This document shows positions 6,195 to 27,907 of a DNA stretch of 34,340 nt, piece by piece (positions within the stretch are counted from its first letter, which is position 1; each line of letters starts with the position of its first letter). The notes under the pieces were generated by a model. That model saw only the letters and a program-made list of their open reading frames with translations, did no database searches and was not told the DNA's origin. This DNA is from Actinomycetes bacterium (GTDB lineage Bacteria > Actinomycetota > Acidimicrobiia > Acidimicrobiales > UBA8190): assembly GCA_021819525.1 (NCBI GenBank), contig JAKAQW010000023.1, forward strand, positions 1-34,340. Direction: 5' to 3'. Position numbers and translations under genes: made by a program.

Positions 6195-6204
6195 GCTCGC
6201 CGCC

Positions 6205-6807: not shown

Positions 6808-6917
6808 GCGTCGGTCGGCCGGCGCCGGAGCGACCGGCGTCGAGACGATGCCGGCGTCGACGGCTCGCCGCTACGCACGGCCAGAGGTGTGGGCACCGGT
6901 GTGCGGACGTGGCGGGC

Positions 6918-7793: not shown

Positions 7794-7808
7794 GGCGAGA
7801 TGCTACTG

Positions 7809-7869
7809 GGTGCCCGGTGCCCGGTGCCCGGTGCCCGGTGCCCGGTGCCCGGTGCCCGGTGCCCGGTGC
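7809..7869. repeat. Heptanucleotide tandem repeat (GGTGCCC)8 plus partial copy, intergenic
   Basis: Direct reading, 8 exact units 7809-7864; lies immediately upstream of the minus-strand methyltransferase gene. Confidence 0.97.
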
Positions 7870-7938
7870 TCCACCTCCGAGGTGCTCGGTGCTCGGTGCT
7901 GCACCTACGAGGTGGCCGGCCTCTCGCCACAGCCGAGA

Positions 7939-9396: not shown

Positions 9397-9605
9397 GCGC
9401 GCAGCACGATAGCGGTTCTCCGAGGGGGGAGCTGGACCGCCTCGGGCGAAGCCGCCACCTGGGAGCTTTTCCGGTGGGAGCTGGTGCCAGGCGGTTCTGC
9501 AGCAAGATCGGCCCGCTGCGACCGTTACCTGGCCACGGGGCTGTCGCGTCCGGCTGGGACCAGCCGGGGCCAGCTCGCAGGAGCGTGATCGATGGGAGGT
9601 CGACC

Positions 9606-10547
9606 GTGTCCGGTGCTCGGGGGCAGCCGGGGGACGCTGCGCAACAGAAGCTGGCGAGGATGGCGGTGACCCAGCGCGTCGAGCGGGGGTCGCGCGTGGC
9701 GCTCGAGGCGCGCGATGAACCGTCGGCACCTCGACCGGTACTGGCGCTGCACGGCGAGTCGACGTCGCCGGCTGCGCTGTGGCGATCACTGTGGCGCTCC
9801 CGGGAGCTGCTCGCCATCTTGGCCCGCAAGGAGTTCCAAGTCCGCTACCGGCGGGCCTCGCTCGGTCTGATGTGGGCGGTAGGGCTCCCGCTGCTGCAGT
9901 CGCTGGTGATGGCCGTCATCTTCTCCAAGGTGGCTCACATCCGAGCCGCGCCGCACTACGTCGTGTTCGTGCTCGCGGGCATGACGGCGTTCATCACGTT
10001 CTCCGCCGCCCTCGGGCCGGGGTCGACCGCCATCGTCGACGGATCGGATCTCTCCAGCCGGGTCTACTTCCCCCGCTTGCTGCTGCCGATGATGCAGGTG
10101 GCTACCAACCTCTACGGGTACGTGATCACGCTGGCCATCCTGCTGGCTCTGTGCCCCGTGCTCCACGTGGGCCTCGGTCTTCGGACACTGCTGCTCATCC
10201 CGGCCACGGTGCTGCTGGTGGCCGTGACGGCCGGGTTCTGCCTGCTGAGCTCGGCGCTGCACGTCTATTTCCGTGACATCCGGTACATGGTGGCCGCCGC
10301 GCTCATGTTGTGGATGTACGTCACTCCTATCGTCTACCCCCCTGGGGACGTGCCGGGGCTGCTGCGCGGGGTGCTCGACGCGAACCCCATGACCGCGGTG
10401 GTCGACCTGTTCCACATGGCCACCGTCGGCTACGGCGGCCCTTCTGAGCTGACGGTGGTCGTGGGCGTGCTCTGGGCGGTAGGCCTGCTGGTGGTGGCGA
10501 CGGCAGTGCACTGCCGGTTCGATCGAGTGTTCGCGGACCTCTTGTGA
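9606..10547 (+). CDS. wzm: ABC-2 type polysaccharide export permease (Wzm/TagG-like)
   Basis: LLAILARKEFQVRYRRASLGLMWAVGLPLLQSLVMAVIF and six-TM layout; overlaps the Wzt-like gene by GTGA. Confidence 0.88.
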   Translation: MSGARGQPGDAAQQKLARMAVTQRVERGSRVALEARDEPSAPRPVLALHGESTSPAALWRSLWRSRELLAILARKEFQVRYRRASLGLMWAVGLPLLQSLVMAVIFSKVAHIRAAPHYVVFVLAGMTAFITFSAALGPGSTAIVDGSDLSSRVYFPRLLLPMMQVATNLYGYVITLAILLALCPVLHVGLGLRTLLLIPATVLLVAVTAGFCLLSSALHVYFRDIRYMVAAALMLWMYVTPIVYPPGDVPGLLRGVLDANPMTAVVDLFHMATVGYGGPSELTVVVGVLWAVGLLVVATAVHCRFDRVFADLL

Positions 10548-11800
10548 GCGCGGCCATCGAGCTGCAAGGGGTCGGCAAGCGGTTCGCCAAGTACGTCGAC
10601 ACCCCCATGCTCGTCTCCTCGGCGCTGCGGTGGCGCCCGAAGACCCGCCGGGACCGGCTCTGGGCGGTGCGCGGTGTCGACTTCACGGTGGAAGCCGGGG
10701 AGTGCGTGGGGGTCATCGGTCGCAACGGGTCGGGCAAGTCGACGCTCATGACCATGATCGCCGGCATCACCGGCCCGACCGAGGGGTCAGTGACCGTCCG
10801 CGGGCGCGTGGCGCCGCTCATCGCGGTCGGGGTGGGGTTCCACCGTGAGCTCACCGGGCGGGAGAACATCTACGTGAACGGCGCGATCCTCGGTCTCGGT
10901 CGCCGGCAGATCCGCCGACGTCTCGACGCGATCGTGGCTTTCTCGGGCGTCGAGGACTTCATCGACACGCCGGTCAAGTTCTACTCGTCGGGGATGTTCG
11001 TGCGACTGGGTTTCGCGGTGGCCGTGCACGCCGAGCCCGATGTCCTCATCGTCGACGAGGTGCTGGCGGTGGGGGACCTCGCGTTCCAGGTGAAGTGCTT
11101 CGAGAAGATGAACGAGATCCGGGCCAGTGGCACCACGGTGGTCATGGTCAGCCACCACCTGGGGGTCGTGCGCCGGATGTGCGAACGGGTGATGCTCATG
11201 GAAAGGGGCCGTCCCCGCGTGGTCGCGCCCCCGGAGCAAGCCATCGCGGCGTTCCACGAGGTGCTGACCGAGGTCACCGACACAGTCGTCGACGAGGTGT
11301 CGGGACTGCGCTACGAGCCGAACGTGGCACGCATCGAGACAGTGGAGATCCTCGGGCCCGACGGCCAGAGGAACAGCCACGTCGAGTCAGGGCTCCCGAT
11401 GGCCGTCCGCGTCCGTGCCACTGTCGTGCAGGACGTGGAGGATCTCGTCGTCGGGTTGACGCTGCTGGCCGGTGACGGCACCACCCTCTACAGCGATTCG
11501 ACGGCCGGGTTCCGCTTCGGGGCAGCTTCCGCGGGTGAGACCGTGAGCTGGGACATGCAATTCCGGGCTCAGCTGCCCACCGGTAGCTACAGCGCGGTGG
11601 CCCGGGTGGACCGTCCCGACCTGCGCACGACGCTGGCCTACCATCCACCGGTCTCCTTCTTCGTCACCGGACGCCACACCGTCACCGGCGTGGCTGACTT
11701 GGAGGCCGTGGTGGTCCGTCACGACGGCGACGTCGACGGGTCGGTGTCCACCGTGGTCGATCCCTCGCCCGGGGCCTTGCTGGCACCCGATCCCCGATGA
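10544..11800 (+). CDS. wzt: ABC polysaccharide export ATPase with Wzt C-terminal carbohydrate-binding-like domain
   Basis: Walker A GRNGSGKST, YSSGMFVRLGFAVAVHAEPDVLIVDEVLAVGD; C-terminal beta-rich extension resembling Wzt_C. Confidence 0.92.
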   Translation: MSAAIELQGVGKRFAKYVDTPMLVSSALRWRPKTRRDRLWAVRGVDFTVEAGECVGVIGRNGSGKSTLMTMIAGITGPTEGSVTVRGRVAPLIAVGVGFHRELTGRENIYVNGAILGLGRRQIRRRLDAIVAFSGVEDFIDTPVKFYSSGMFVRLGFAVAVHAEPDVLIVDEVLAVGDLAFQVKCFEKMNEIRASGTTVVMVSHHLGVVRRMCERVMLMERGRPRVVAPPEQAIAAFHEVLTEVTDTVVDEVSGLRYEPNVARIETVEILGPDGQRNSHVESGLPMAVRVRATVVQDVEDLVVGLTLLAGDGTTLYSDSTAGFRFGAASAGETVSWDMQFRAQLPTGSYSAVARVDRPDLRTTLAYHPPVSFFVTGRHTVTGVADLEAVVVRHDGDVDGSVSTVVDPSPGALLAPDPR

Positions 11801-11882
11801 GCGCCCCCGTGGCGAAACGCTCGGGTGCCGTCGCCGGCTCCCGCTGTCGGCGCGGGGTGAAGCCCGGTGGGCGAGGTGGGCG

Positions 11883-12488
11883 GTGACGCCGGCGACGCGG
11901 TCGGTCCAGCGCCTGCCGTGGCGATTGCGCTACGAGGCCGCGGCATCGTTGGCGTCGCGCTGGCGGCGGTTGGCAGTGACCGTGACCCACCGCCACTGCC
12001 GGGTGGTCTTCGCCGGCCCGGTGCGTCTCGGGCCGGGCTTCGAGCTGTACATCCCCGACCGCGGCAGCCTGGTGGTCGGAAGCGGCGTGGAGCTCCGGCG
12101 GGGGTTCGTGTGCGAGATATCGGGGGAGGGGGAGGTGCGCATCGGGGACGGTTCGGTGTTCACTGCCGGGGCGCTCCTCCAGTGCTCGACGTCGATCCAG
12201 ATCGGCAGGCGCTGCGTCTTCGGCCAGGACACCATGTTGGTCGACGGCAGCCACCGCTTCGGAGATCCCGATCGCCACCTCCTCGACCAGGGGTACGACT
12301 ACCGCCCGCTGCGGATCGACGACGGCGCGGTCGTCATGTCCAAGTGCACCGTGTTCGCCGATATCGGCGCAGGCACGGTGGTCGGTGCCCACTCGGTGGT
12401 GAGCCGACCGCTCCCCGGGCGCTGCCTGGCGATCGGTGCGCCGGCTCGCCCGGTGCGGTTCTTCGAGCCGGCGCTGGAGCCCAGGTGA
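11883..12488 (+). CDS. LbetaH acyltransferase
   Basis: IGDGSVFTAGALLQCSTSIQIGRRCVFGQDTMLVDGSHRFGD...IGAGTVVGAHSVVSRPLPGRCLAIGAPARPVRF. Confidence 0.88.
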   Translation: MTPATRSVQRLPWRLRYEAAASLASRWRRLAVTVTHRHCRVVFAGPVRLGPGFELYIPDRGSLVVGSGVELRRGFVCEISGEGEVRIGDGSVFTAGALLQCSTSIQIGRRCVFGQDTMLVDGSHRFGDPDRHLLDQGYDYRPLRIDDGAVVMSKCTVFADIGAGTVVGAHSVVSRPLPGRCLAIGAPARPVRFFEPALEPR

Positions 12489-14392
12489 TCACTGCATCGG
12501 ATCTGAGCGTGGTGATCCCCACGGCCACAGCCGGCTCGGCGCTGAGCGAGACGCTGGCCGGGCTGTCGCTCCAGGACGTGACCGGGTTCGAGACGGTGGT
12601 GGTGGTCGACGGCCTCGACGTCCCGGCCCCGGCTGCCGGCGACGGCGTGGACGGTCCCGTGGTGCTGGTGCAGCCCCATCGCGGTCCGGGCGCTGCGCGG
12701 AACCGGGGCGTGGCGCGCGGAGAGCGGCCGTTGGTGCTCTTCCTCGGCGACGACATGGTGCCCGCACCGGATCTGGTGCGCCGGCACCTCGAAGCCCAGG
12801 AGCGCCACGTGGCACGGCACGGCGATCGTCGCACGGTCGTGCTCGGTCGGGCCCGCTGGCATCGTGCGGTGGCCGGCGGAAGGTGCGAACGGTGGCTGGA
12901 GCGAAGTGGCGCCCAGTTCGACTACGGAGCGGCCTCTGGATCCCAGGCCCACTTCGCCCAGTTCTACTCGTGCAACGTGTCGATGTGGCGGGAGCTGTTC
13001 GTGTCGGCAGGGGGGTTCGACGAGCGCTTCGCGTTCGCGTACGAGGATCTCGACGCCGGGTACCGCTTGGAGCGAGCCGGCATGCGCCTGGTGCACGATC
13101 CGCAGGCGGTGACCTGGCATCGCCACGCCTACGACCTGGCCGCGCTGCATCGTCGGTTCCGGCTCGTCGGCGAAGGCGAGCATCTCATGGCGACCTTGCA
13201 CCCGTGGTTCGAGCCGTACTTCTTGTCTCGCTGGGTGCCGGCGCTCGACGAGCCCGAGCCGTCGCCGCTGTGGCCGCGGCTCGAGAGGTGGATCCCGCGT
13301 CAGGCCGGTCGGCTGGCCGAGATGGCCTGGTACCGAAGCGACCTTTGGTACCGCCGCACGCTCGTTCCGAGCCTCCTCGCGGGGTGGTGGGCCGCTGACG
13401 ACCTTGCCGAGCTGCGGGACTACCTCGGTGAGCGGTTCGACGAGACGATGCTCGAGGCACACGTAGCGGCCGTCGACCAGGAACGGGACCGAGCCGCCGA
13501 CGAGGCGTCGTTCTACCGCACCAGCGACGCCTACCTCTACGACCTGACGGTGTTCTCCATGTCGGCCACGAAGGCGCCCTACCTGGCCGAGCTGCGACGC
13601 CTGCTCGCTCCCGACGCCCGGGTCCTCGACTACGGCTGCGGCATCGGCGCGGACGGGTTGCGCCTGGCGGCGGCTGGCATGACCGTCTCCTTCGCCGACT
13701 TCGCCAACCCGAGCACGCAGTACCTGCGGTGGCGTCTCGCCCGACGGAACTGGGACTGCCCGGTCCACGATCTCGACGCGGGCCCCGTGCCCGGGAGCTT
13801 CGACGCAGCGTTCTCCTTCGACGTGATCGAGCACGTCGACGACCCGTTCGCCTTCTTGGAGCAGTTGGAGCAGCGAGCCGGCCTGGTGGCGGTCAACCTG
13901 CTCGAAGCGGAGCCCGGCGACACCGACTTGCACCGGCCGCTGCCGATCGCGGCGCTCTTGGACCACGGGGCACGCCGGGGCCTCGTGCGCTACCGGCGCT
14001 ACCACGGGCGGTCGCACCTGATGATCTACCGGGGATCGGGCCCCGGCGTGTCGCGCTGGCGGAGCCGGGCACAGCGGCAGGTGGGGCGATGGCTCGCTCG
14101 CGCGACGCCGTGGTTCCCTCGGCCGCTCCCGGCGGGCGCGCCCCGAGCGTCGTCGTCATCATCGTCATCATCGTCATCGTCGTCGTCATCGTCGTCGTCA
14201 TCGTCATCGCCGCCGCCGCACACCCCGCCGCACACCCCGGTGCCCGAGCCGGTGCCGGCAGCGACGCCGGTGGTCAGGCCTCCCACGCCGAGTGCCCCCG
14301 CCCGGGCAGCGGTGCCCGCGTACCGGGGGTGCCTCAGGGCGCTTCTCGACACGCGTGGCGCCGATGCAGACGGTGGCGAGGTCCTCCCGTGA
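12485..14392 (+). CDS. Bifunctional GT2 glycosyltransferase - SAM methyltransferase fusion with poly-Ser/Pro-rich tail
   Basis: GTG at 12485 overlapping the previous stop (GTGA); GT2 motifs SDLSVVIPTATAGSALSETLAGLSLQD, GGFDERFAFAYEDLDAGYR; MT motif ARVLDYGCGIGADGLRLAAAGMTVSFAD. Confidence 0.9.
   Translation: MITASDLSVVIPTATAGSALSETLAGLSLQDVTGFETVVVVDGLDVPAPAAGDGVDGPVVLVQPHRGPGAARNRGVARGERPLVLFLGDDMVPAPDLVRRHLEAQERHVARHGDRRTVVLGRARWHRAVAGGRCERWLERSGAQFDYGAASGSQAHFAQFYSCNVSMWRELFVSAGGFDERFAFAYEDLDAGYRLERAGMRLVHDPQAVTWHRHAYDLAALHRRFRLVGEGEHLMATLHPWFEPYFLSRWVPALDEPEPSPLWPRLERWIPRQAGRLAEMAWYRSDLWYRRTLVPSLLAGWWAADDLAELRDYLGERFDETMLEAHVAAVDQERDRAADEASFYRTSDAYLYDLTVFSMSATKAPYLAELRRLLAPDARVLDYGCGIGADGLRLAAAGMTVSFADFANPSTQYLRWRLARRNWDCPVHDLDAGPVPGSFDAAFSFDVIEHVDDPFAFLEQLEQRAGLVAVNLLEAEPGDTDLHRPLPIAALLDHGARRGLVRYRRYHGRSHLMIYRGSGPGVSRWRSRAQRQVGRWLARATPWFPRPLPAGAPRASSSSSSSSSSSSSSSSSSSSPPPHTPPHTPVPEPVPAATPVVRPPTPSAPARAAVPAYRGCLRALLDTRGADADGGEVLP
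14150..14209 (+). repeat. TCG/TCA trinucleotide tract encoding about 20 consecutive Ser
   Basis: Direct reading of tcgtcgtcatcatcgtcatca...; in-frame with the GT2-MT fusion. Confidence 0.95.
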
Positions 14393-16725
14393 GCGCTGGC
14401 ACGGGGCAGGGGATCGCCGCGCCCGCCGAGGGCCTGGTCGACGCCCCGGATGCAGCCGCGCGAACGGCGCCTGTCGAGCAGGTCACCCCGATCCGACGAC
14501 CTCAGGTGGACGTGGGGGTGGTCACCTTCAACACGGCCGCGCTGTCGACGCACGCGCTCCGTCACCTGCTCGACAGCGACCAGGGGTGCGACCTGCGGGT
14601 CCTTGTCCACGACAACGCGTCGGCCGACGGCACGGTCGGGCAGCTGGCGCGGGAGGTGCCCGAAGCCGAGGTGGAGGCCGGGAGCGAGAACGTCGGGTTC
14701 GCCCGCGCCGTGAACCGCCTGCTGGCACGGTGCGACGCGCCGTGGTTCTTGGCACTGAACTCCGACGCCTGGCCGGAGCCCGGTGCCGTCGGCCGCCTGC
14801 TGGCAGCCGGCGAGCGACACGCCGATGCCGCGGCGGTGGCACCGCGGCTGCTGCGTCCCGACGGATCGGTCGAGCACTCGACCCACGGGTTCCCGTCGCT
14901 GGGAGTGGCGGCTGCCGACGCCCTCGGACTGCGTGGTCACCTCCCGGTGCGCTGGGCCCAGCAGCGATGCCTGGCGGGCTACTGGAGCCACGATCGCGCC
15001 CGGCAAGTGGACTGGGCGGTGGGCGCCGCGCTCCTGGTGCGGCGCAGTGCCGTCGAGGAGGCAGGTGGGTTCGACGAGCGCTTCTTCATGTACGTCGAGG
15101 ATCTGGCTTGGTGCTGGTCGGTCCGCCAGGCGGGATGGACGGTGTGGTTCGAGCCGGCCGCAACGGTGCGCCATGTCGGGAACGCTTCGGGGGCGGCGCA
15201 CTTCGGTGGTCGTCGGGCGGCCTTGGAGGTCGCCAACCGGCAGCTGTTCTTGGTGGGCACCCGAGGCAGGGCCTGGGCAGAAGCGTTTCGAGCGCTCGAG
15301 GTCGCCGCGAGCCTGAGAGCCTCGGCGTCGGCAAGGCGAGGTGGCGACTGTGAGACCGCTGCCCACTGGCGTCACCAGGCGAAATGCCTGCTCGGGGTGG
15401 TGCCGGTCCCGGTCCCCGGCGTCCACCTGGCACCTGGAGGCACGACGGGGGCGCACGCGGCGCCCGGACATAGCGCAGCCGAGCCGGAGGCCTCTTCGGA
15501 GCGCTCCGAAGTGCGAGATGCCTCGGGAGAGAGCGCCGTGGACGAGGCTGGGCTGTGGACCTCCCCTGCCGCTCGCGAGGACGCGCGGCGCTCGCCACAG
15601 GACCCACCCCTGGTGTCGGTGGTGGTACCGACCTGCGATCGAGCCGATCACCTCGGCCGCCTGCTTCGGGCGTTGGCAGCGCAGACCTTGTGGCAGCACG
15701 ACGCGTGTGGTGCGCAGGGCCCCGAGCCTGGAGGCGGAGATCCCGGGCCTGAAGGCGCAGTGGCTGACCGCGGGGCCGAGAAGGCGTGCGGGGGCGGGAG
15801 GGCCCCCCGATGCGGCGGTGGGGTGCTCGCCCTCCACGGCAGTACGAGGTCGCGGCGATGGAGCCCGGGCGAGATCGTGGTGGTCGACGATGCGTCCGCC
15901 GACGACACCCAGGCGGTGGCGGCCGAGGCGGCTCGCTGGTGTCCGGTGCCGGTGACCGTGCTGCGCCAACCCGTCCGCCTCGGGCCCGCCGCTGCTCGCA
16001 ATCGGGGGTGGCGCCGTGCACGAGGGTCGGTGGTGGCCTTCACCGACGACGACTGCATGCCGAGCCCCAGGTGGCTGGCTGCGGGTTTGGCGGCTATGGA
16101 CGGCACCCCGATGGCGGTGGTCGGCCGGACCGAGCCACCACGGGAGCAGCTCGCGCTCGGCGGGCTGCCCTTCGCCCGGGTGCTCCGGGTACGAGACGCC
16201 CGTTTCGCCGAGACCTGCAACGTCTTCTACCGTCGCAGCGACCTTGCCAGCGTCGGCGGGTTCGACGAGCGTTTCCGCCGCCCGAGCGGCGAGGACACCC
16301 GATTGGCGCTGGACCTGCGTGCAGCGGGGCTCGTGCACCACTACCACCCTGACGCCCTCGTGCACCACGACGTGCGCACCGGTGGATGGCGGGCCGCGTG
16401 GAGCGAGACGTCGCGGTGGGCGGATCTTCCTCTCGTCGTGGCCGGCCGGCCGTGGGCACGCCGGGAGCTGGCGCATCGCATGGTGTTCTGGAAGCCGACC
16501 CATCCTCCGGCGCTGGGGTTGGTGGTGGGGCTGGCAGCGGCGCGGCGCCGGAGGACGGCTTTGGTCCTCTGCGGGCCGTGGCTGTGGCGACGCCTGGTGA
16601 GCGACCCGGTATGTGGCTCACCTGCCGGTCGCGTCTGGTACCTCCCGGCTGCCGCGGCGCTGGATCTGTTAGAGGTGGCGGTCATGGTGCGCGGTTCGTG
16701 GCGGCACCGGACTGTGTTGCTGTGA
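14389..16725 (+). CDS. Bifunctional GT2-GT2 glycosyltransferase
   Basis: GTG at 14389 in GTGA overlap; GT2 a: VDVGVVTFNTAALSTHALRHLL...VHDNASADGT...GGFDERFFMYVEDLAWCWSVRQ; GT2 b: LVSVVVPTCDRADHLGRLLRALAAQT...GEIVVVDDASADDTQ...FTDDDCMPS...GGFDERFRRPSGEDTRLALDLR. Confidence 0.9.
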   Translation: MSAGTGQGIAAPAEGLVDAPDAAARTAPVEQVTPIRRPQVDVGVVTFNTAALSTHALRHLLDSDQGCDLRVLVHDNASADGTVGQLAREVPEAEVEAGSENVGFARAVNRLLARCDAPWFLALNSDAWPEPGAVGRLLAAGERHADAAAVAPRLLRPDGSVEHSTHGFPSLGVAAADALGLRGHLPVRWAQQRCLAGYWSHDRARQVDWAVGAALLVRRSAVEEAGGFDERFFMYVEDLAWCWSVRQAGWTVWFEPAATVRHVGNASGAAHFGGRRAALEVANRQLFLVGTRGRAWAEAFRALEVAASLRASASARRGGDCETAAHWRHQAKCLLGVVPVPVPGVHLAPGGTTGAHAAPGHSAAEPEASSERSEVRDASGESAVDEAGLWTSPAAREDARRSPQDPPLVSVVVPTCDRADHLGRLLRALAAQTLWQHDACGAQGPEPGGGDPGPEGAVADRGAEKACGGGRAPRCGGGVLALHGSTRSRRWSPGEIVVVDDASADDTQAVAAEAARWCPVPVTVLRQPVRLGPAAARNRGWRRARGSVVAFTDDDCMPSPRWLAAGLAAMDGTPMAVVGRTEPPREQLALGGLPFARVLRVRDARFAETCNVFYRRSDLASVGGFDERFRRPSGEDTRLALDLRAAGLVHHYHPDALVHHDVRTGGWRAAWSETSRWADLPLVVAGRPWARRELAHRMVFWKPTHPPALGLVVGLAAARRRRTALVLCGPWLWRRLVSDPVCGSPAGRVWYLPAAAALDLLEVAVMVRGSWRHRTVLL

Positions 16726-19100
16726 GCGACCGATCACCTGGCGCGCTGGCGGTGGCGCTGGCCCACCCCTTCCTCTGGCCCGAAGTCCGTCGCGGCGCCG
16801 AGCGCTACCTGGAGGATCTGGCGCGGTTCCTCGCCGGACGGGGGCACCAGGTGACGGTGGTGACCGGCACGTGGGACGCACCGTCCACCGTGCGCCGCTC
16901 CGATGGCGTGGTCGTGCGCCGCTTCCGCCACCGACGTGCCGGGCCGATCGCCCGCTTCGGGATCGGTGAGGTGGAGACCTTCGGACAAGCGGCGTTCTCG
17001 GCGCTGTGGCGCCAGCGGTTCGACCTGGTGCATGCCTTTACGCCGACAGCGGCCCTCGCGGCTCGCGCCGCTGGTTTGCGGACGATCTACTCGGTGCTGG
17101 GGCATCCGGTTCGTGCCCAGCTCCCTGCCGACCGGCTGCCGCGCTGGCTGTTCGCGGCAGCTGCCCGCCATGCCACGGTGACTGCGGCGCTCAGCGAGGC
17201 CTCGGCCGACGCGCTGCGGTCTTGGTCGGGCTTGTCGGCCCGTGTGCTGGCGCCCGGGGTCCACATGTCAGGGTTCGAGCCGGCGCTGGGCGCACGGGCC
17301 GGACCGCCGCGGCTGCTGTTCTCTGCGTCGCTGGCCGATCCCCGCAAACGAGCAGACCTGGCCATCGCCGCGTTGGCAGGCGTCCTTCCCCGGCACCCTC
17401 ATGCCCGACTGCGCCTCTCGGGGGCGGGCGATGCGAAGCCGATCCTGGCGGCGGCGGCGGTGTTCGGAGACAAGGTGGCCCAGGCCGTAGACGTGCTCGG
17501 CCCCGGCGAGCCCGACGAGGTTCCCGAGCGCTATCGTCAGGCGACAGTCACGGTGCTTCCCGCCGATCACGAAGCCTTCGGGCTGGCTCTGGTGGAGTCG
17601 CTGGCCTGCGGGACGCCGGTGGTGTGCAGCCCCTCGGGAGGCATGCCCGAGATCGTCGTCCCCGAGGTGGGCCGGGTCGCTGCCTCGGCCTCGGCGGCGG
17701 ATCTGAGCGTTGCCGTGCTCGAGGCCGTCGACCTCGCCGCCGAGCCCGGCACCGCGGCACGCTGTGTGGCCCGGGCGCGCCACTGGGACTGGGATACCTC
17801 GGTGGGACCTGCTCACGAAGCGCTCTACCGGGAGGTGGCCGCGTCTCGGGGCGCCTGGAGGCGCCGCCTGCCAGCGTCGGCTTGGCTGAGCGCGCCTGTG
17901 GCTTCGGAGAAGGGGTCGGTGCCCGAGGGCCAGCGCGCGGAGCCGTCCAGGCCCGACCGTGGATCTGAGCCGGGTGGCGCACGTCTGTCTGCGGTCCCGA
18001 GGTCCGCTCGCCGCGAGGCGGTACTGCACTTCGCGGCGGACTGGCTGCCCCCCTCCGAGGTCTTCGTCCACGACCTGGTGCGCAGCCTCCGGCGACCAGG
18101 TGTGGTCGTGGCCGCTGATCCCGTGCACGACACGGAGCGGTTCCCCGTCCCCGAGCTGCACAGCCTGGCCCGGTACCAGCGCTACGTGCGGCCCCTGGCG
18201 TTACGCCCACCGCTCGAAGCGGTGTACCTCGAGATCTTGGCCCGTCGCCGCCAGGTGTCCGTGGTCCACGCCCACCACGGCTATCGAAGCGACCAGGCAG
18301 CCCGCCTGGCCCGTCGCCTGGGGATCGCCATGGTGCTGTCCCTGCACGGCCACGACGTGACCGGCTACTTGGAAGAGCGGCCCGACGCCTACCGGCTCGT
18401 GGTGCCGGCGGCCGACGCCGTGGTGGTGCCGAGCCGCTTCCTGGCCGCTTTGGCCGTCGAGGCGGGTTTCCGTGCCGAGCAGGTGCGAGTCATCCCGTCG
18501 GGAGTCGACACCACGGTGTTCCGACCGACCCCGCTGCCCGCAGGTGACCCGGTCGTCTTGTTCGTCGGGCGGTTCGTGGCGAAGAAAGGCATCGACGTGC
18601 TTGCTCGGGCCTGGCCGCTCGTGCAGCGGGCTGTGCCCGCAGCTCGCCTGCGCCTGCTCGGCTTCGGCCCCCTCGAAGCGCAGGCCCGGGCCATCGCCGG
18701 GCGGGTGAGCGTGGAGCGTGCCCCGGACCGCCGGCAGGTGGCGGCGGCCATGCGCGAGGCCCGGGTGGTGGTGAGCCCGAGCCATCGCGCCGCTGACGAC
18801 TCTGTGGAGAGCCTCCTCATGGTGAACCTCGAAGCCCAGGCGTCAGCGCGGCCGGTCGTCACCACCGCGCACGGGGGCATCTGCGAGTACGTCCGGCACA
18901 TGGAGACCGCGGTGGTGGTCCGGGAGTCCGACGCCACGTCGCTGGCCGAGGCCCTCGTGCGCCTTTGCCTGGACGACGACCTCGCGCGGCGCCTTGGCCA
19001 CCTGGGGCCGAGGTGGGCTGCACAGTTCGACCTGCGGGCCACCGCCGCTCGGATCGACGCGCTCTACGACGAGCTGGTCGACGCCCGCCGCAGCACCTGA
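16722..19100 (+). CDS. Bifunctional GT4-GT4 glycosyltransferase
   Basis: GTG at 16722 in GTGA overlap; first GT4: FLWPEVRRGAERYLEDLARFLAGRGHQVTVVTG...DHEAFGLALVESLACGTPVVCSPSGGMPE; second: VHAHHGYRSDQAARLARRLGIAMVLSLHGHDVTGY...VRVIPSGVDTTVFRP...VVLFVGRFVAKKGIDVLARA. Confidence 0.92.
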   Translation: MSDRSPGALAVALAHPFLWPEVRRGAERYLEDLARFLAGRGHQVTVVTGTWDAPSTVRRSDGVVVRRFRHRRAGPIARFGIGEVETFGQAAFSALWRQRFDLVHAFTPTAALAARAAGLRTIYSVLGHPVRAQLPADRLPRWLFAAAARHATVTAALSEASADALRSWSGLSARVLAPGVHMSGFEPALGARAGPPRLLFSASLADPRKRADLAIAALAGVLPRHPHARLRLSGAGDAKPILAAAAVFGDKVAQAVDVLGPGEPDEVPERYRQATVTVLPADHEAFGLALVESLACGTPVVCSPSGGMPEIVVPEVGRVAASASAADLSVAVLEAVDLAAEPGTAARCVARARHWDWDTSVGPAHEALYREVAASRGAWRRRLPASAWLSAPVASEKGSVPEGQRAEPSRPDRGSEPGGARLSAVPRSARREAVLHFAADWLPPSEVFVHDLVRSLRRPGVVVAADPVHDTERFPVPELHSLARYQRYVRPLALRPPLEAVYLEILARRRQVSVVHAHHGYRSDQAARLARRLGIAMVLSLHGHDVTGYLEERPDAYRLVVPAADAVVVPSRFLAALAVEAGFRAEQVRVIPSGVDTTVFRPTPLPAGDPVVLFVGRFVAKKGIDVLARAWPLVQRAVPAARLRLLGFGPLEAQARAIAGRVSVERAPDRRQVAAAMREARVVVSPSHRAADDSVESLLMVNLEAQASARPVVTTAHGGICEYVRHMETAVVVRESDATSLAEALVRLCLDDDLARRLGHLGPRWAAQFDLRATAARIDALYDELVDARRST

Positions 19101-19774
19101 GCGGGCACCCCCGAGGCGAAGTGCTCGGAGGGAACGTCTTTCACCACGACGGAATTGGCGGCGATCACTGCCCGATCGCCGATGGTCACGCCCCGGGCCA
19201 CCGTGACCTTGGCGCCCAGCCAGGTGTTCTCGCCGATGGTGACCGGTGCCGTGCGGACGTTCGCGATCACCCACTCGCCGGTCCCGTCGTAGGTGTGGCT
19301 GGAGTCGACCACCGAGGCGTACTCGCCCATCGATGTCCATCGTCCCAGGACCACCGCTTCGTCGCAGTGGATGGTGACCCCGTGCTGGAGGACGTTGTGG
19401 CCCACGAGGTCGACGGCGCCGCTCGCGCCGATGGTGCAGCGGGCCCTGATGTCGACCCCTTCACCGAGCGACAGTGCCCCGCCGCGCAGCTCGATGCGGA
19501 CGTCGTCGCCGATCTTGCAGTCCGCGGCGATGGCGAGCGTGCTCGCAGAGCGTGGTTCGACGACAACGTGAAGGCGGCGTCCGAGGCGGACGTCGGGGGA
19601 GATCTGGCAAGCGACCCTCGCCCGATGCCACCAAGCCCGCACCGCGATGCCGGTGAGCAGCTGCCGGCGGCGCCAGCGGCCCGTGGCGGCGCTGCTTGCC
19701 GCGTAGCCCACGTGGGCCAGGTGGAACGCGGCGCGCAGCGGGTGGGCCAGCGCCTCGCTCGCGGACCGGCTCAC
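19064..19774 (-). CDS. LbetaH acyltransferase
   Basis: IGDDVRIELRGGALSLGEGVDIRARCTIGASGAVDLVGHNVLQHGVTIHCDE...IGENTWLGAKVTVARGVTIGDRAVIAANSVVVKDVP; start GTG 19774 overlaps the upstream stop. Confidence 0.88.
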   Translation of the reverse strand: MSRSASEALAHPLRAAFHLAHVGYAASSAATGRWRRRQLLTGIAVRAWWHRARVACQISPDVRLGRRLHVVVEPRSASTLAIAADCKIGDDVRIELRGGALSLGEGVDIRARCTIGASGAVDLVGHNVLQHGVTIHCDEAVVLGRWTSMGEYASVVDSSHTYDGTGEWVIANVRTAPVTIGENTWLGAKVTVARGVTIGDRAVIAANSVVVKDVPSEHFASGVPAQVLRRASTSSS

Positions 19775-20781
19775 GGGACGGCGAACGGTGACGCCGGATC
19801 CGCGAGCTCGCGGCGGTACCAGGCGATGGTCTTGGCGAGCCCGTCGCTCAGTGAGTGCTGCGGCTTCCACCCGAGGCGGTCCACCGCCCGCCGGCTGTCC
19901 GAGCGCATGGTCCAGATCTCGGTGGGACGTTCGGGAAGGGCTCCGAAGTGGGCTTCGACTGGGTTCCCGAGCATGGCCAGGACGGTGCTGGCGACGTCGC
20001 GGACAGCGACGTCCTCGCCGCAGCCGAGGTTGAACAGCTCGCCTTCCACGCCGTCGGTGGCAGCAGCGCGCACCATGGCGTCGACGAGATCGGCGACGTA
20101 GTTGAACTCCCGGGTCTGGCGACCCTGGGTCATCCGCACCGGTTCACCGCGCAACGCCCGGACGATGATCTCGGGGATGACCCGGTCGGTGCTCTGGGCC
20201 GGCCCGTAGGCGTTGAACGGCCGGAGGAAGACGATGGGGGCACCTCGGCCCTGGTGCAGGACCCGGGCGAAGCACTCCGCGCCGTACTTGGAGGCGGCGT
20301 ACGGCGAGATGGGTCGCACCGGCTGGTCTTCGCGAAACGGCGCGGGGACGTCGCCGTAGATCTCGCTGGTGCCGACGTTGACGAAGCGCCGGTAGCCGAC
20401 CCGCTCGAGGGCCTGGAGCAGGTTGACGGTGCCCTGCACGTTCACCTGGATGCACTCGTCGACGCGCTGCCAGGACTTGCCCACGTGGGTATAGGCGCCG
20501 AGATGGAAGACGTGGGTGGGGCGCACCGCGCCAGCGAGGGCGTCCATCGCGCTGCGGTCGGCCAGGCTGCCTTCGTGCACGGTGATCTGCTCGCGCACGG
20601 GGACCAACCGGACGCCGTACACGCTCGAGGTGGCACTGGTCAGCGCATGGACCTCGACCCCGTCTGCCACCAGGCGCCGCACCAAGTGCGATCCGATGAA
20701 CCCGCTGGCCCCGGTGACCAGCGCTCGGCTGCCGGCGGGAAGGGCGGCCGCCGGTCTTGCGACGCCACGCTGCGCGTTCAC
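19771..20781 (-). CDS. NAD-dependent sugar-nucleotide epimerase/dehydratase (extended SDR)
   Basis: ALVTGASGFIGSHLVRRL, TSEIYGDVPAPFREDQPVRPISPYAASKYGAE (YxxxK), LRPFNAYGPAQSTDRVIP. Confidence 0.92.
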   Translation of the reverse strand: MNAQRGVARPAAALPAGSRALVTGASGFIGSHLVRRLVADGVEVHALTSATSSVYGVRLVPVREQITVHEGSLADRSAMDALAGAVRPTHVFHLGAYTHVGKSWQRVDECIQVNVQGTVNLLQALERVGYRRFVNVGTSEIYGDVPAPFREDQPVRPISPYAASKYGAECFARVLHQGRGAPIVFLRPFNAYGPAQSTDRVIPEIIVRALRGEPVRMTQGRQTREFNYVADLVDAMVRAAATDGVEGELFNLGCGEDVAVRDVASTVLAMLGNPVEAHFGALPERPTEIWTMRSDSRRAVDRLGWKPQHSLSDGLAKTIAWYRRELADPASPFAVP

Positions 20782-21602
20782 GATCGAGCACCTGAGATGG
20801 CCCCGATGCCGTCGGGGTCGGGCTGCTGGCCACCGCCACGCCCGCCGCCTTCTGCACCGCCGCCACGCCCGCCGCCTTCTGCACCGCCGCCCGCGCCCGC
20901 CTCGGCGTGAACCGACCACGGTGGGCGCGGGCCGCTACCGGCCAGGGCCGAAAGCTCCATGGCGTCTTTGTAGGTGTCCATGGACTGCCAGAAGCCGTGG
21001 TGACGGTACGCGAAGAGCTCCCCGGCCCTGCCAAGAGCCGGGAGGACCTGGCGCTCGAAGTCCTCAGCGCCGAACCAGGTGCTCGCCCGCTGGTCGACGA
21101 CGAAGAACCCAGCGTTCACCCAGTGGTCAGGTAGCCGGGGCTTCTCCCGGAAGTGCACGACTCGGCCGTCGGGGCCGATGTCGATGGTCCCGTACGGCGA
21201 CGGCAACGGGACGGTGGTGACTGTGACCGCCCCCCCATGGCGGGCGTGGAAGGCCGCCAACGCGTGGAGGTCCACCGCGCCGAGCCCGTCGGCGTAGGTG
21301 AGGAACCAGCGTGCTCCCATCTCGGGCGCGCACCGGGCCACCCGCGTGCCGGTATCGGCGTCGACGCCGGTGTCGCGCACCTCCACCGTCCAGTGCGCCG
21401 GCAGCCGAGCGGCGAGCTCGGCCACCATGTCGGCTTTGTAGCCCGCGGCGAGCACGAAGTCTGTGAACCCTTGGCTGGCGTAGATCCCCATGACGTGCAG
21501 GAGGATCGGCTGCCCGGCCACGTCCATGAGCGGCTTGGGGACCTCCACGGTGTGGGGACGGGCCCGGGTGCCCTTGCCGCCGCAGAGGATGAGGGTTCGC
21601 AT
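20778..21602 (-). CDS. Sugar nucleotidyltransferase, RfbF (glucose-1-phosphate cytidylyltransferase)-like, with Gly-rich repeat tail
   Basis: MRTLILCGGKGTRARPHTVEVPKPLMDVAGQPILLHVMGIY; FREKPRLPDHWVNAGFFV; QSMDTYKDAMEL. Confidence 0.85.
   Translation of the reverse strand: MRTLILCGGKGTRARPHTVEVPKPLMDVAGQPILLHVMGIYASQGFTDFVLAAGYKADMVAELAARLPAHWTVEVRDTGVDADTGTRVARCAPEMGARWFLTYADGLGAVDLHALAAFHARHGGAVTVTTVPLPSPYGTIDIGPDGRVVHFREKPRLPDHWVNAGFFVVDQRASTWFGAEDFERQVLPALGRAGELFAYRHHGFWQSMDTYKDAMELSALAGSGPRPPWSVHAEAGAGGGAEGGGRGGGAEGGGRGGGQQPDPDGIGAISGARS
20835..20888. repeat. 2 x 27-bp direct repeat in the 3' end of the rfbF-like gene (GGGRGGGAE repeats)
   Basis: gccacgcccgccgccttctgcaccgcc twice in tandem. 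Confidence 0.95.
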
Positions 21603-21722
21603 GCAGTCTCCCGTGTCAGTCGCCGAGATCGATCCGCGTCACCGGCGGCGCCCGGTACGTGGACAACGGATCGCAGGCGTCTATCTTTCGATCCGGATCC
21701 CGGTGGGTGCTACCGTGCGCGG

Positions 21723-22820
21723 GTGTCCGGCACGAGGACCGTTGGCGGAGGAGATGTCGCAGACATCTGCACCAGCGCCAGTTGGGAAGGGCCTCGGCCG
21801 GCGGTGTCGGTCGTGGTGGCGACCTACCGACGACCATCGTGGCTTGCGGACCTGCACCAGGCGCTGAGCGAGATGCAGCGACCTCCCGGGGGCTTCGAGG
21901 TGGTGCTGGTCGACGACGCGTCAGGCGACGGCACCTGGGACGTGATCCGCCGGCTGGCAGAGGGCTCCGCTCTGCGGCTCCGAGGCGTGCGGCTCGTCGC
22001 CAACGCCGGCCAGGGGACCGCGCGCACCATAGGCGTCGGACAGGCTCGGGGAGCAGTCGTCGCGTTCACCGACGACGACTGCCTGCCGAGCGAGGTGTGG
22101 CTGGTGGCGTTGGCTGCACCGCTGCTGCGCGCGTTGGCGTCGGGAGACGATGGCGCAGAGGGCGCGGCCACCTCCTTGGTGGTGCAGGGACGGACCGTAG
22201 CGTGGCCGGGTGACGCGGGGGGAGCGGGCGCGTGGGCGCGCACCATCTGGGTGCTGCGCCCGAGCTGGCTCTTCGAGACCTGCAACATCGCCTACCGCCG
22301 AGACGACATCCTCGCGGTCGGGGGGTTCGCCGGACGCGGCGACGCGCCGCAGGGCGCGCACGGTCGGCTGGTGGGGGAGGACGCGCTCGTGGGGTGGGCG
22401 GTGATGGCCCGGGGCGCCACCCTCGTCTTCGTGCCCGCTGCGCTGGTCTACCACCGCCATCATCGGGCCAGCTACTGGCAGTTCGTGGCTGACCAGCGCG
22501 GGCGCGCCGTGTTCCCGGCGCTGGTCGGCTGTAGCCCGCAGGCCCGATCCGCGATGTGGCACCGATGGTTCCTGGCACGGCGCACCGCTCTGTTCGACCT
22601 GGCTGTGCTGACCGCGGCGATTGGATCGATCGGCCGCTCGCGTGCTTGGCGGTGGTGGTGGCTGGGAACCGTACCGTGGCTATGGTCTGCCGCCGGCGAA
22701 GCACGCCACCGTCCGGGCAGACCGCTGGCGGTCCGCCTGGTACAGCTGGCGCTGGCAGACGCGGTGGGTGGTGCGTCGTTGGTGGGTGGGAGCATCCGCC
22801 GGCGGCACTTGGTGATCTGA
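21723..22820 (+). CDS. Family 2 glycosyltransferase
   Basis: PAVSVVVATYRRPSWLADLHQAL, FEVVLVDDASGDGTWDVI, FTDDDCLPSEVW, ETCNIAYRRDDILAVGGF. Confidence 0.9.
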   Translation: MSGTRTVGGGDVADICTSASWEGPRPAVSVVVATYRRPSWLADLHQALSEMQRPPGGFEVVLVDDASGDGTWDVIRRLAEGSALRLRGVRLVANAGQGTARTIGVGQARGAVVAFTDDDCLPSEVWLVALAAPLLRALASGDDGAEGAATSLVVQGRTVAWPGDAGGAGAWARTIWVLRPSWLFETCNIAYRRDDILAVGGFAGRGDAPQGAHGRLVGEDALVGWAVMARGATLVFVPAALVYHRHHRASYWQFVADQRGRAVFPALVGCSPQARSAMWHRWFLARRTALFDLAVLTAAIGSIGRSRAWRWWWLGTVPWLWSAAGEARHRPGRPLAVRLVQLALADAVGGASLVGGSIRRRHLVI

Positions 22821-22839
22821 GCCACGGTCGGTTCGGGCT

Positions 22840-24837
22840 GTGGCGGCGCTCGACGCGGTGATCGCGCGGCTCGCAGTGCCTTGGCGGCGCAAGGATCGCC
22901 GATCGCAGCCGTTCCCAGGACGACAGGGATGGGCGCGCCGTGCCCGGGAGCGCTGGCGAAGATGGCAGCGGGGAGTGGTCCATCGGCGCTGGCTCACGGA
23001 TCGGGTCGGATCCGAGACGCCTTCGGTCGCCTCGGAGCAGTCGGTGGAGGGACAGGGTGCGGCATCGGAGCCGGGCATCGAGACGGGGACCGGGCGAGCG
23101 CTCGGCGGTGATGGTGCAGCTTGGCCGGCCAAGGGGGAACCAGTGACGGACGACCTGCTGGGTGTGGGAGAGCTGGACGGTCACTCCGTGGATGTGCGGT
23201 TGGGGGATCTTGCCGAGGGAGATCTTGTCGAGGGGTGCCTTGTCGAGGGGGCCACCGCCGTCGCTCCTGGCCTGGGCGCTGGTCCTGGGTGCCAGGAGGC
23301 CGGTCCGGCGCTCGACGGTCGGGGAACCAGCGCTCCGGGTGCAGATCTGTCGATGGGGACAGTGAGCGATGGTGAATTGTGGGCGGAGCTGGCTGGCGAC
23401 GCGATGTCGCTCACGGCGCCGGAGGTGTCGCTGGGAGGGATGCGCCTGCGGGGGCAGGCCGGAGCCGAGGCGCTCGCCATGGACGTCTTCGGAGTGCTCG
23501 TGGCCATGGTGGTCGCCGCCTTCACCGTGGGCGCCATCGAGGTCCAGCGCCACGGCCCGGGTGGGGGTGCGGTGTTCGGAGGGACGCTGCTGCGCCTGGT
23601 TGTCTGCCTACCGGTGTTCGTGACGGTGCTGGCGTCGACGCGTCGCCCCGTGCGCGCACAGCTGCGAAGCACGGTGGGTTCGCACATGGGGCAGGTGGCC
23701 GGTCCGCTCGCGGCGGGGGGCCTGGCTGCGTTGGTGCTCTTGCGGGTGCTCCATCTCTTCGGCGTGTCGGAGCCCGGGCTCGACAGCGTCCTTCTCACCT
23801 GCGCCGCCGGTGTGGCGAGCGTCGGGATCTGCCGCAGCATCGTGCACGGTGTGCCTCGCCGCCAGGGCAGACGGGCTCGCCGTGTCGTCGTCGTCGGCAC
23901 TGGGATGGTGGCCGGCCGTGTGGCAGATTGCCTGCGTGCGGCAGGCGACACCGAGATGCTCGGGTTCGTCGACGACGACCCGATCGATCGCAGGCAGTGG
24001 CTGGGGCGGCTCGATCGCCTGACGGAGATCTGCGATCGCTCTGGCGCCGATCACGTCGTGGTGGCGTTCTCCGCAGCGCCGGCAGAGCGGCTCGTCGACG
24101 CGCTGCGCCCGTTGCAAGGGACGCTGCCCATCAGCGTGGTGCCGAGGCTCTTCGACGTCCTGCCGGCGTCTGTGACCATGTCGGAGCTCGGAACGGGGTT
24201 GCCGGCGCTCACCATGGCGCCGTCGGCGTTGGGGTGGTGGCCGACGGTGCTCAAGCGGACCATGGACGTGGTGGGGGCGAGCGCCGGCCTGCTCTGCTTG
24301 TGGCCGGTCCTGGTGGGCGCAGCAGTAGCGGTTCGCGCGAGCTCCCGAGGCCCCGTGGTGCTGCGCCAGACCCGGATCGGCCGCTACGGCCAGGAGTTCC
24401 GCATGTACAAGTTCCGCACCATGGTGGTCGACCGACCCGCGGTCCACCCCGCTGGTGCCACGTTCGACGTCGCAGACGGACCGTTCTTCAAGCTGAAGCG
24501 TGACCCGCGGGTGACCGGGGTAGGTCGCTGGCTCCGGCGCACCAGCATCGACGAGCTCCCGCAGCTGGTCAATGTGCTCATGGGCCACATGTCCCTGGTC
24601 GGGCCGCGCCCGTTCCTCCCGCAGGACTCGGCCCATATCCGGGGCTGGGCTGCCCGGCGCTACAGCGTCCGCCCGGGGGTGACCGGTCTGTGGCAGGTGT
24701 CGGGTCGCAACGACGTCACCTTCGACGACATGTGCCGCCTCGATCACCTCTACGTCGCGTGCTGGTCCGTAGGCCTGGACCTGCGGGTCCTGGTTCGCAC
24801 GGTGCGCGCCGTGCTGGCCGGGCGTGGCGCCTACTGA
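22840..24837 (+). CDS. Exopolysaccharide polyprenyl-glycosylphosphotransferase (WbaP-like initiating sugar transferase), N-terminal start uncertain
   Basis: [23 protein letters not shown]...[46 protein letters not shown]...[24 protein letters not shown]; TMs from ~23480; ~200 aa low-complexity N-terminal extension. Confidence 0.9.
23206..23250 (+). repeat. 3 x 15-bp imperfect repeat ([15 protein letters not shown]) in the wbaP-like gene
   Basis: gatcttgccgaggga / gatcttgtcgagggg / tgccttgtcgagggg. Confidence 0.9.
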
Positions 24838-25280: not shown

Positions 25281-26045
25281 ATGACCCCCGGTATCGAGGT
25301 CGACGGTGTATCCAAGCGCTTCGGCTCGACGTGGGCGTTGCGCGACGTGTCGTTCACCGTGCCGGCCGGGCGTGTCGTGGCCCTCATCGGTCACAACGGT
25401 GCGGGGAAGAGCACGCTCATGCGTATCGTGGCCACGGCGGTGCTCCCGGACAGTGGGAGCGCCCGGGTGGCAGGGGTCGACGTGGTGGCCGATCCCGCCG
25501 CTGCCCGCCGGCGCATCGGGCTGGTGCTCGGCGAGGACCGCTCCTACTTCTGGCGCCTGTCGGGTCGCCAGAACCTGGCCTTCTTCGCCGCGCTGCGAGG
25601 GCTGGGCAGAGCCGCCGCCGAGCACGGCATCGACGCCGTGCTCGATGCGGTGGAACTGGACCACGGAGCTGATCGGCGCGTGGACCGCTACTCGACCGGC
25701 ATGCGCAGCCGGCTCGGGATCGCTCGGGCGCTCCTCGGCGAACCTGGCGCTCTGCTCCTCGACGAGCCGACCCGGAGCCTCGACCCGACATCGTCAGCCG
25801 AGGTCCGGAAAGTGTTGGGGCAATTGGCGCACCGCCGTCAGGTGGCGGTGCTCGTCGCGACCCATGACCTCTCCGAGGCATCGAAATTGGCAGACGAAGT
25901 GGTAGTCCTGGCCGGCGGAAAAGTAGTGGCGACCCTGGGATCCGGCGAGGCGCCCTCCGCGCTCCAACTGGCCATGGACGCCGGTTCTCCCAGGGCCGGC
26001 GACCCTGGGCGGCCGACCGGCGAGCCGGTGGGGGCGCAGCGGTGA
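25281..26045 (+). CDS. ABC transporter ATP-binding protein (ABC-2/NodI-like), no adjacent permease
   Basis: Walker A GHNGAGKST, YSTGMRSRLGIARALLGEPGALLLDEPTRSLDP signature/Walker B, ATHDLSEASKLAD. Confidence 0.92.
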   Translation: MTPGIEVDGVSKRFGSTWALRDVSFTVPAGRVVALIGHNGAGKSTLMRIVATAVLPDSGSARVAGVDVVADPAAARRRIGLVLGEDRSYFWRLSGRQNLAFFAALRGLGRAAAEHGIDAVLDAVELDHGADRRVDRYSTGMRSRLGIARALLGEPGALLLDEPTRSLDPTSSAEVRKVLGQLAHRRQVAVLVATHDLSEASKLADEVVVLAGGKVVATLGSGEAPSALQLAMDAGSPRAGDPGRPTGEPVGAQR

Positions 26046-26099
26046 GCAATGCGATGTTGACGAGCACGGTCGTCGTGCACTACCGATTGGAGGATGGAC

Positions 26100-26267
26100 A
26101 TGAACCGAAGCGAGCAGCCGGGGGGCGTGGCCGAAGTGTACGAACCGCCGAGCTTGACGGTCCACGGGTCGATCGTCGACCTCACCCGGGCGACCGCCGC
26201 CGGCAGCATGACCGACCGGGCGTTCCCTGCCGGAACGCCGCTGACGGGGCTGACCTTCTCCGGCTGA
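26100..26267 (+). CDS. Putative lasso-peptide-like RiPP precursor, 55 aa
   Basis: Translated by hand: MNRSEQPGGVAEVYEPPSLTVHGSIVDLTRATAAGSMTDRAFPAGTPLTGLTFSG. YEPPSLTVHGSIVDLT matches YxxPxLxxxGxxxxxT; GGAGG 6 nt upstream of the ATG; next gene is a PqqD-like RRE. Confidence 0.85.
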   Translation: MNRSEQPGGVAEVYEPPSLTVHGSIVDLTRATAAGSMTDRAFPAGTPLTGLTFSG

Positions 26268-26430
26268 GCACTCCTGCTTGCCACATGGCCGGCGGTGAGG
26301 CGCCCGGCACCGCTCGTCGTCGCTCCGGGTGCCCGAGGGGCGGCCGGCAGCGTGAGCGATGTCGGCTGCGCCAGCCGCGTGCCGAGAGCCGGGCGTCCAG
26401 CCAGAAGGTCGTGCGCGCGCTCAGGCGGCC

Positions 26431-26685
26431 GTGGTGAAGCGGCGGGGGGATCTCGCCTGGCGCTCCGTCGATGGCCAGGTGGTCGGCCTCGACCTGGAGG
26501 CATCGTGCTACTTCTCGGTCAACGCCACCGGTGCGCTGCTGTGGGAGCGCCTGGGCGAGGAGGCCGACCTGGAAGAATTGGTCCAGCTGGTGGTCGACAC
26601 CTACGCGCTCGACGCAGACCAGGCTCGACATGACGTGACCGCCTTCCTCGCAGCGCTGTCGGACCAGGGCCTGCTGGCGACGTGA
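26431..26685 (+). CDS. PqqD-like RiPP recognition element protein (lasso B1-like)
   Basis: VVKRRGDLAWRSVDGQVVGLDLEASCYFSVNATGALLWERLGEEADLEELVQLVVDTYALDADQARHDVTAFLAALSDQGLLAT: canonical PqqD fold sequence pattern. Confidence 0.87.
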   Translation: MVKRRGDLAWRSVDGQVVGLDLEASCYFSVNATGALLWERLGEEADLEELVQLVVDTYALDADQARHDVTAFLAALSDQGLLAT

Positions 26686-26707: not shown

Positions 26708-27907
26708 GTGAGCCGAGCTGGCCTCGCCGTGGCAGCCTCGAGCACCTCGGAGTGCCCAGCGGAGGCCCGCGATCCACATCTCGGTGCGTTGGCGGTGCTG
26801 TGGGCTGCCTGCGCGGTCGGGGTCGATCCGGCTCAGCTTCGGAGCCTGGCCGAGTCGCTCGATCCGGCGACGGATGGCCCTTGGCTGACTTCGGTGGCCG
26901 CGATCAACCGGGTCGGGCCGCTGCTGTGGCACGTCTTGTCTGATGCAGGCTGCCCGCAGGTCCTCGGGTCGGGGGCCGAGCCGTTGCGCCGCCTGGCTGT
27001 GGCACAGGACCTCGAGGCGACTGCAGTGGTGCCTTTGACGCTGAAGCGTGCCGTGGAGCCGTTGACCGGCGCCGGGCTGGAGCCGCTCGTGTTGAAGGGG
27101 CCGCTCTTGGCCCGGCGGTACCCCGCCGCCGGTCTTCGCCCCATGGACGACCTCGATCTGCTGCTCCCACGGCGACAGCACGACCAGGCCGTAGCGGTGC
27201 TGACCAGCTCTGGATGGGTGGTCCGTCGTCGACGGCATGTCGACAGGTACGACACGGTGCTGGTGCACGAGCAGACGCCGTCGTTGCCGCTCGAGCTGCA
27301 CGCCGGTCTGCAGACGTTCTACGAGTGGGCCACCAGCCTGCGAGCGCCTGTCATCTGGGGTCACCGCCAGCCAGTCGAGGTGGACGGCACGGCGGCCTTC
27401 GGCCTCGACCCCGAGATCGAGCTGGTGACGATCGCTGCCCATGCTGCCAAACCGTTCCACGGCTTCAGCCGGATGATCTGGGCAGTGGATCTCGCCGTCG
27501 TGGTGGAGCACGCGGCGGCCAGCCGAGGTGTCGACTGGGACCGCTTGTGCCAGCTGGCCAGACGCTGGCGATGTGCGAGCGCGGTAGGGGTCGGACTGAC
27601 CTTGGCGCGGCGCTTGGGCGCTCGAGTGCCCGAAGAGGTGCTCCGAACGCTTTGCGGCGAATGGGCTGTCTGGCAGCGCCGGGCGCTCGCCCCGGTGCTG
27701 GCACCTACGTGGCCGGCCGTCGGCACCTTCTCCGTGGCGTTCCACGTGCGGTTCGCGCTTGCCGACACGGCCGTGCACCGGCTGGCGCTCGCCGCCGGGG
27801 CCGCCTACCAGATGCCGTGGGCCGAGCGCCTGGCGTGGCCGGCGGTGGGGCTCGGAAGGGCGGCGAGGCGCTGGCAGCAGCTTCACGGCGGGCTGCAGGT
27901 CCGGTGA
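26708..27907 (+). CDS. Nucleotidyltransferase family protein (NTP_transf_5-like)
   Basis: LEPLVLKGPLLARRYPAAGLRPMDDLDLLLPRRQHDQAVAVLTSSGW; typical LKG...R..DDLDLL motif of that family. Confidence 0.82.
   Translation: MSRAGLAVAASSTSECPAEARDPHLGALAVLWAACAVGVDPAQLRSLAESLDPATDGPWLTSVAAINRVGPLLWHVLSDAGCPQVLGSGAEPLRRLAVAQDLEATAVVPLTLKRAVEPLTGAGLEPLVLKGPLLARRYPAAGLRPMDDLDLLLPRRQHDQAVAVLTSSGWVVRRRRHVDRYDTVLVHEQTPSLPLELHAGLQTFYEWATSLRAPVIWGHRQPVEVDGTAAFGLDPEIELVTIAAHAAKPFHGFSRMIWAVDLAVVVEHAAASRGVDWDRLCQLARRWRCASAVGVGLTLARRLGARVPEEVLRTLCGEWAVWQRRALAPVLAPTWPAVGTFSVAFHVRFALADTAVHRLALAAGAAYQMPWAERLAWPAVGLGRAARRWQQLHGGLQVR

Follow-up and report, generated by a model that had tools for sequence, protein, structure and literature searches.

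The 55-amino-acid open reading frame at positions 26100 to 26267 of the window (the whole stretch of DNA analyzed, 34,340 nucleotides) is almost certainly a real lasso-peptide precursor gene. Peptides of this class are shaped like a slipknot. Judged by its sequence, the encoded peptide is a new, class-II-like lasso precursor. The window contig (C341) carries only the lasso gene set ATPase-A-B1-N, where A is the precursor, B1 the RRE, and N a nucleotidyltransferase. Genes for the protease (B2), the HPr-type kinase (K), the cyclase (C), and the permease are missing there. They are on two other contigs of the draft genome, permease-K-C on C121 and B2 on C302, which is beyond what the window sequence could show. 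We consider it probable that an ancestral cluster broke up into three loci with complementary gene content and that their products act in trans.

Precursor gene and its neighborhood

The reading frame, its sequence, its coordinates, and the GGAGG 6 nucleotides before the ATG were confirmed by direct reading. The NCBIfam model NF033521 (lasso_leader_L3) matches residues 14 to 30 with 24.6 bits (cutoff, 19). This match and the alignment of homologs bear out the lasso-type leader of the original prediction. The score against NF033528 (lasso_cyano) is 21.7 bits, under the cutoff of 33. The lasso leader register Tyr(-17), Pro(-14), Leu(-12), and Thr(-2) (PMC10368454) fits the precursor exactly with a core start at Ala31, so that Asp39 is core position 9. 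The precursor has both sequence features of lasso membership: a YxxPxL...G leader with Thr at -2, and an Asp or Glu within core positions 7 to 9 (here Asp9). For this precursor, as in the original prediction, an Ala31-Asp39 macrolactam with a 9-residue ring is predicted; threading of the tail also is predicted. A leader-model search of the same genome found no second match over the cutoff.

Table 1. Coordinates of features in the window
Feature	Position	Strand	Remarks
Surface-glycan biosynthesis cluster	5100..24837		Pfam matches; glycosyltransferases, sugar epimerase, nucleotidyl transferase
Wzm/Wzt-type exporter	9474-11797		Pfam matches; within glycan cluster
Undecaprenyl-phosphate sugar transferase	22840-24837		Pfam matches; within glycan cluster
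ABC transporter ATPase	25281..26045	+	PF00005, 101 bits; upstream of A
Shine-Dalgarno-like GGAGG	26089..26093	+	Upstream of ATG 26100
Lasso precursor gene A	26100..26267	+	55 aa; leader residues 1-30; predicted core ATAAGSMTDRAFPAGTPLTGLTFSG = residues 31-55
B1, PqqD-type RRE	26359..26685	+	PF05402, 60.4 bits; downstream of A
N, NTP_transf_5 nucleotidyltransferase homolog	26708..27907	+	PF14907, 127 bits; predicted tailoring enzyme

Homologs of the precursor were found in three genomes of the same order (G062, two in tandem; G014, two; G005, one) in a search of 99 genomes, mostly from that order. They are 38 to 53% identical to the window precursor. Y14, E15, P17, H22, G23, T29, G35, D39, and P43 are invariant across the window and same-order precursors (n = 6). 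Mesorhizobium sp. ES1-4 (L119) and a Frankiaceae MAG (L120) encode precursors whose alignment with the window precursor runs from the leader Tyr through the last residue without a gap. The Mesorhizobium precursor reads ...TQ before the core start and GGASGAVTDAAFPAGTPFQDITFS after it; the Frankiaceae precursor reads ...TL and then GHHTGNFTDATFPTHTPFSQLTFS. Tyr(-17), Pro(-14), and Thr(-2) are common to the six same-order precursors and these two. Asp is core position 9 in 6/6 same-order precursors and in both distant ones. The core start and the Asp at position 9 given in the original prediction hold against all of these homologs. Because the frame has homologs in its own order and ungapped matches in Mesorhizobium and the Frankiaceae MAG, chance is excluded as its explanation.

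Pairwise dN/dS values between the leader Tyr and the stop were 0.16 against Mesorhizobium, 0.38 against the Frankiaceae MAG, and 0.47 to 0.48 against G062; synonymous sites are partly saturated and the values are rough. All are below 1, the outcome that the original prediction had proposed as a check of the gene. As far as the sequence comparison goes, purifying selection acts on A, which is intact.

Core position 1 is Ala in most relatives, and Gln1, Glu1, and Thr1 also are present in the order. Ala1 is not unusual in this group, contrary to the original prediction. Core residues other than Gly are frequent at this position in the order (Ala, Gln, Glu, Thr), as seen in the Thr(-2) register at L046, L185, L187, and L188. 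The C terminus is Ser-Gly in the window precursor and in the two from G062, and Ser in the Mesorhizobium and Frankiaceae precursors. A last residue of Ser is a paeninodin-type feature; the window precursor ends in Gly.

The window ATPase is 58 to 71% identical to that of G014 over two stretches. The G014 homolog sits with its own permease directly upstream of A. B1 supplies the RRE of a lasso system. It starts at either ATG 26359 or GTG 26431, the latter being the start in the original prediction. The solved chains nearest to it are TbiB1 (5v1u) and TfuB1 (6jx3), both lasso B1 proteins, and another lasso PqqD protein. N shares 42% identity with its counterpart in the complete G062 cluster.

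Precursors of this type lie inside or beside glycan or exopolysaccharide clusters at four loci (the window, L119, L120, and L046). The window also contains perfect or near-perfect short tandem arrays at 28383-28500 (9-bp unit) and 29541-29636 (19-bp unit). Further arrays are at 7809-7869 (7-bp unit), 58-175 (6-bp unit), and 33245-33328 (27-bp unit).

Complete clusters of this type were found in two relatives. The G062 cluster is contiguous with the order A-A-B1-B2-K-C-N. The G014 cluster is contiguous with the order ATPase-permease-A-A-B1-B2-K-C-N. Conserved homologs beside RRE genes, which the original prediction had named as a check, are therefore present in both. The Mesorhizobium precursor passes NF033528 (35.4 bits; cutoff, 33). 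The B2 beside it scores over the NF033537 cutoff, and the neighboring C matches the curated cyclase model NF033535 over its cutoff, at 796 bits. The complete G062 and G014 sets and these curated-model matches place the window's precursor type in genuine lasso clusters. Most other loci in the order with the same cyclase contain B1, B2, K, and a leader-like frame within about 7 kb.

The original prediction also allowed for another, non-lasso RiPP with a lasso-type leader. Such a peptide would be modified solely by window genes, for example by N, and the only genes adjacent to A are indeed those for the RRE and the NTP_transf_5 protein. Against this, the core aligns without gaps to precursors in canonical lasso clusters (Mesorhizobium and the Frankiaceae MAG), Asp9 is invariant, and a lasso B2 and a cyclase are present in every close relative examined. 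We give this reading very little credence.

Remaining genes on two other contigs

B2 is the sole PF13471 member over the cutoff in the genome (C302:36.8-37.5 kb). It passes the lasso_biosyn_B2 equivalog NF033537 with 46.5 bits (cutoff, 33). This transglutaminase-like protease keeps its Cys and His, and the motifs CLRHAL and AHAW are intact. It is just 28 to 32% identical to B2 of the relatives.

The genome contains one cyclase of the C family (C121:4.3-5.8 kb). It is Asn-synthetase-like, with a PF00733 match over the cutoff, and is 43 to 47% identical to C of the complete clusters. The motifs FSGGRDSS, GEGGDE, and RSKARFN are intact. The short C gave no score over the cutoff with curated lasso-cyclase models, and a profile sequence search found no solved structure for C. 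An AlphaFold model of the Frankiaceae short C from single-sequence input had a pLDDT of 36 and was discarded. Cyclases of about 400 to 520 aa with an Asn_synthase match only and no GATase domain are encoded at L045:2974-4173, at L120:106-1302, and on C121 (L052:4260-5822). Mesorhizobium has the same core type as the short-cyclase loci and a two-domain cyclase. PF00733 matches on C47 and C196 were rejected as lasso genes; neither contig has a meaningful match to lasso genes, and the C47 frame looks queC-type by eye.

K is encoded on C121 and keeps its Walker A motif (GPSGTGKST). An HPr-like kinase is a paeninodin-type feature. The permease (C121:7234-8031), which appears to be the partner of the window ATPase, is on the same strand directly upstream of K-C and is 51% identical to the G014 permease (E value, 1.4e-72). 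It is the sole close homolog of that permease in the genome; two other matches are weak (E values of about 1e-5). One PqqD protein, the window B1, and one NTP_transf_5 protein, the window N, were found in the genome. These one-copy results cover B1, B2, C, N, and the permease, the families searched genome-wide. Low-complexity in-frame insertions that were not seen in relatives are present in B2 (C302, L050:9820-10524) and in C (C121, L052:4260-5822); the genome is rich in short tandem repeats.

The clustering of A, B, and C genes is a usual lasso trait, though not a strictly defining one. Here, A and B1 are in the window, B2 is on C302, and C is on C121. The contents of the three contigs are complementary, and the G014 gene order is preserved inside each fragment. 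The stretch between the permease and K on C121 showed no trace of A, B1, or the ATPase. The window locus could instead be decaying. B2, K, C, and the permease would then have departed, leaving A-B1-N as relics and the precursor unmatured. The missing window genes fit such a loss, as do the low-complexity insertions in the distant B2 and C. However, A appears intact and selected, and B1 and N are intact. Each lost gene also is retained once elsewhere with its motifs intact, and random decay would not give complementary retention. We regard decay as unlikely and favor three complementary loci.

The source genome is a draft MAG in 341 contigs that is 88% complete with an estimated contamination of 0.88%. 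In so fragmented a draft, C121 and C302 could come from another organism, or the window contig could be misjoined. The low contamination estimate speaks against this, and so does composition. When tetranucleotides are compared with those of the remaining genome, the correlation is 0.973 for C341, 0.959 for C121, and 0.945 and 0.928 for the halves of C302. In sampled contigs of at least 7 kb from relatives, it is 0.82 to 0.92 and at most 0.923, so that C121 and C302 (0.93 to 0.96) exceed every one of them. Dense short tandem repeats are common to the three contigs. The lasso segments are interior in all three and flanked by other genes, for example fdhD on C121 and frames resembling glnD and mobA on C302. 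A misjoin also would need to part interleaved genes at several gene boundaries. A binning or assembly artifact is thus quite improbable.

Phylogeny and co-occurrence point the same way. K clusters with K of precursor-bearing relatives (support, 98/98), and B1 does likewise (85/85). The tree position of C is compatible with those relatives, and B2 is too diverged to place. The C family occurs in 13/248 genomes of the order, and this B2 family occurs in 10/248. Given this rarity, chance co-occurrence of both in a precursor-bearing genome is unlikely. The membership of C121 and C302 in the same genome is statistical and rests on composition, co-occurrence, and phylogeny.

Other loci in the order also show signs of dispersal. 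The only precursor found in G005 (L047:2381-2554, C127) lies between GGDEF and PLP decarboxylase genes, and its B1-B2-K-C set is on C223. G223 has two partial, mutually complementary loci (L189 and L190, on C43 and C37; contig ends limit this reading). One holds B1, K, C, and N with a leader but lacks B2, and the other holds B2 and C with a leader but lacks B1. G031 was rejected as a dispersed case. Its K and B2 are both a few hundred bases from contig ends, so an assembly gap is probable.

Proposed pathway and origin

In established lasso biosynthesis, B1 binds the leader, B2 makes its cut one residue beyond Thr(-2), and Asp is where C closes the ring (PMC10368454, PMC9266682). By analogy, the window B1 would bind the precursor leader at YxxPxL, and B2 from C302 would cleave it after Arg30. 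The ATP-dependent C from C121 would then join the Ala31 amine to the Asp39 side chain to give the 9-residue ring, and the 16-residue tail would be threaded through it. K from C121 and N from the window would probably act on a hydroxyl residue, first by phosphorylation and then by glycosylation or nucleotidylation. Pseudomycoidin receives a phosphate at its C-terminal Ser, and also hexoses, from kinase and N homologs (PMC9266682). The last residue of the window peptide is Gly rather than the Ser modified by known C-terminal kinases, and this counts against the proposal. The proposal also is weakened by the draft state of the genome, the low identity of B2, the insertions in B2 and C, and the lack of a curated-model match over the cutoff for C. 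The window ATPase and the C121 permease may export the product. We infer the joint action of the separated products, the cleavage site, the ring, the threading, the tailoring site, and the export.

The three loci most likely would have arisen by the break-up of an ancestral, G014-like ATPase-permease-A-B1-B2-K-C-N cluster. Duplication and reciprocal loss could account for the order kept in each fragment, but this is speculation. A more specific scheme would have the lasso peptide made in trans from three loci with a glutaminase-less cyclase, given a sugar-phosphate from nucleotide sugars of the glycan cluster, and joined to or acting on the surface glycan. We regard that scheme as a long shot.

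Comparison with known systems

The unusual features here are the predicted partition of the core genes over three loci and the predicted cyclase without a glutaminase-like domain. A literature search, which was not exhaustive, found no published report of scattered lasso core genes, of the window core motif, or of a glutaminase-less cyclase of about 400 aa. Lasso peptides usually are found through adjacent protease and cyclase genes, and a scattered layout is probably missed by standard cluster searches. If the three-locus arrangement is true, lasso peptides are undercounted by co-localization searches, and this group is a natural test of RiPP cluster break-up without loss of function. From a short cyclase acting on a core type that elsewhere is paired with a two-domain cyclase, one could learn which portion of the enzyme can be spared.

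Paeninodin, pseudomycoidin, and the Bradymonas bsf system resemble the window set in the YxxPxL leader, the split B1 and B2, and the HPr-like kinase and N that accompany A and C (PMC9266682, PMC10368454). They are compact clusters (PMC9266682, PMC10368454), whereas the set here occupies three loci. The window peptide also differs from theirs in Ala1, the predicted 9-residue ring, and a Ser-Gly end instead of Ser.

Mesorhizobium ES1-4 is like the window over 41 ungapped residues from the leader Tyr to ...TFS, with Asp9, FPAGTP, and a glycan-cluster setting in common. It differs in Gly1, a compact cluster, and a canonical two-domain cyclase. G062 and G014, which have tandem precursors, share the gene set, Asp9, and the short cyclase with the window genome, but their genes are contiguous. 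Lanthipeptides with unclustered proteases also have a RiPP maturation enzyme away from the precursor (PMC8960859). Those belong to another RiPP class, and the protease alone is remote (PMC8960859); here, the protease, cyclase, kinase, and permease all are remote.
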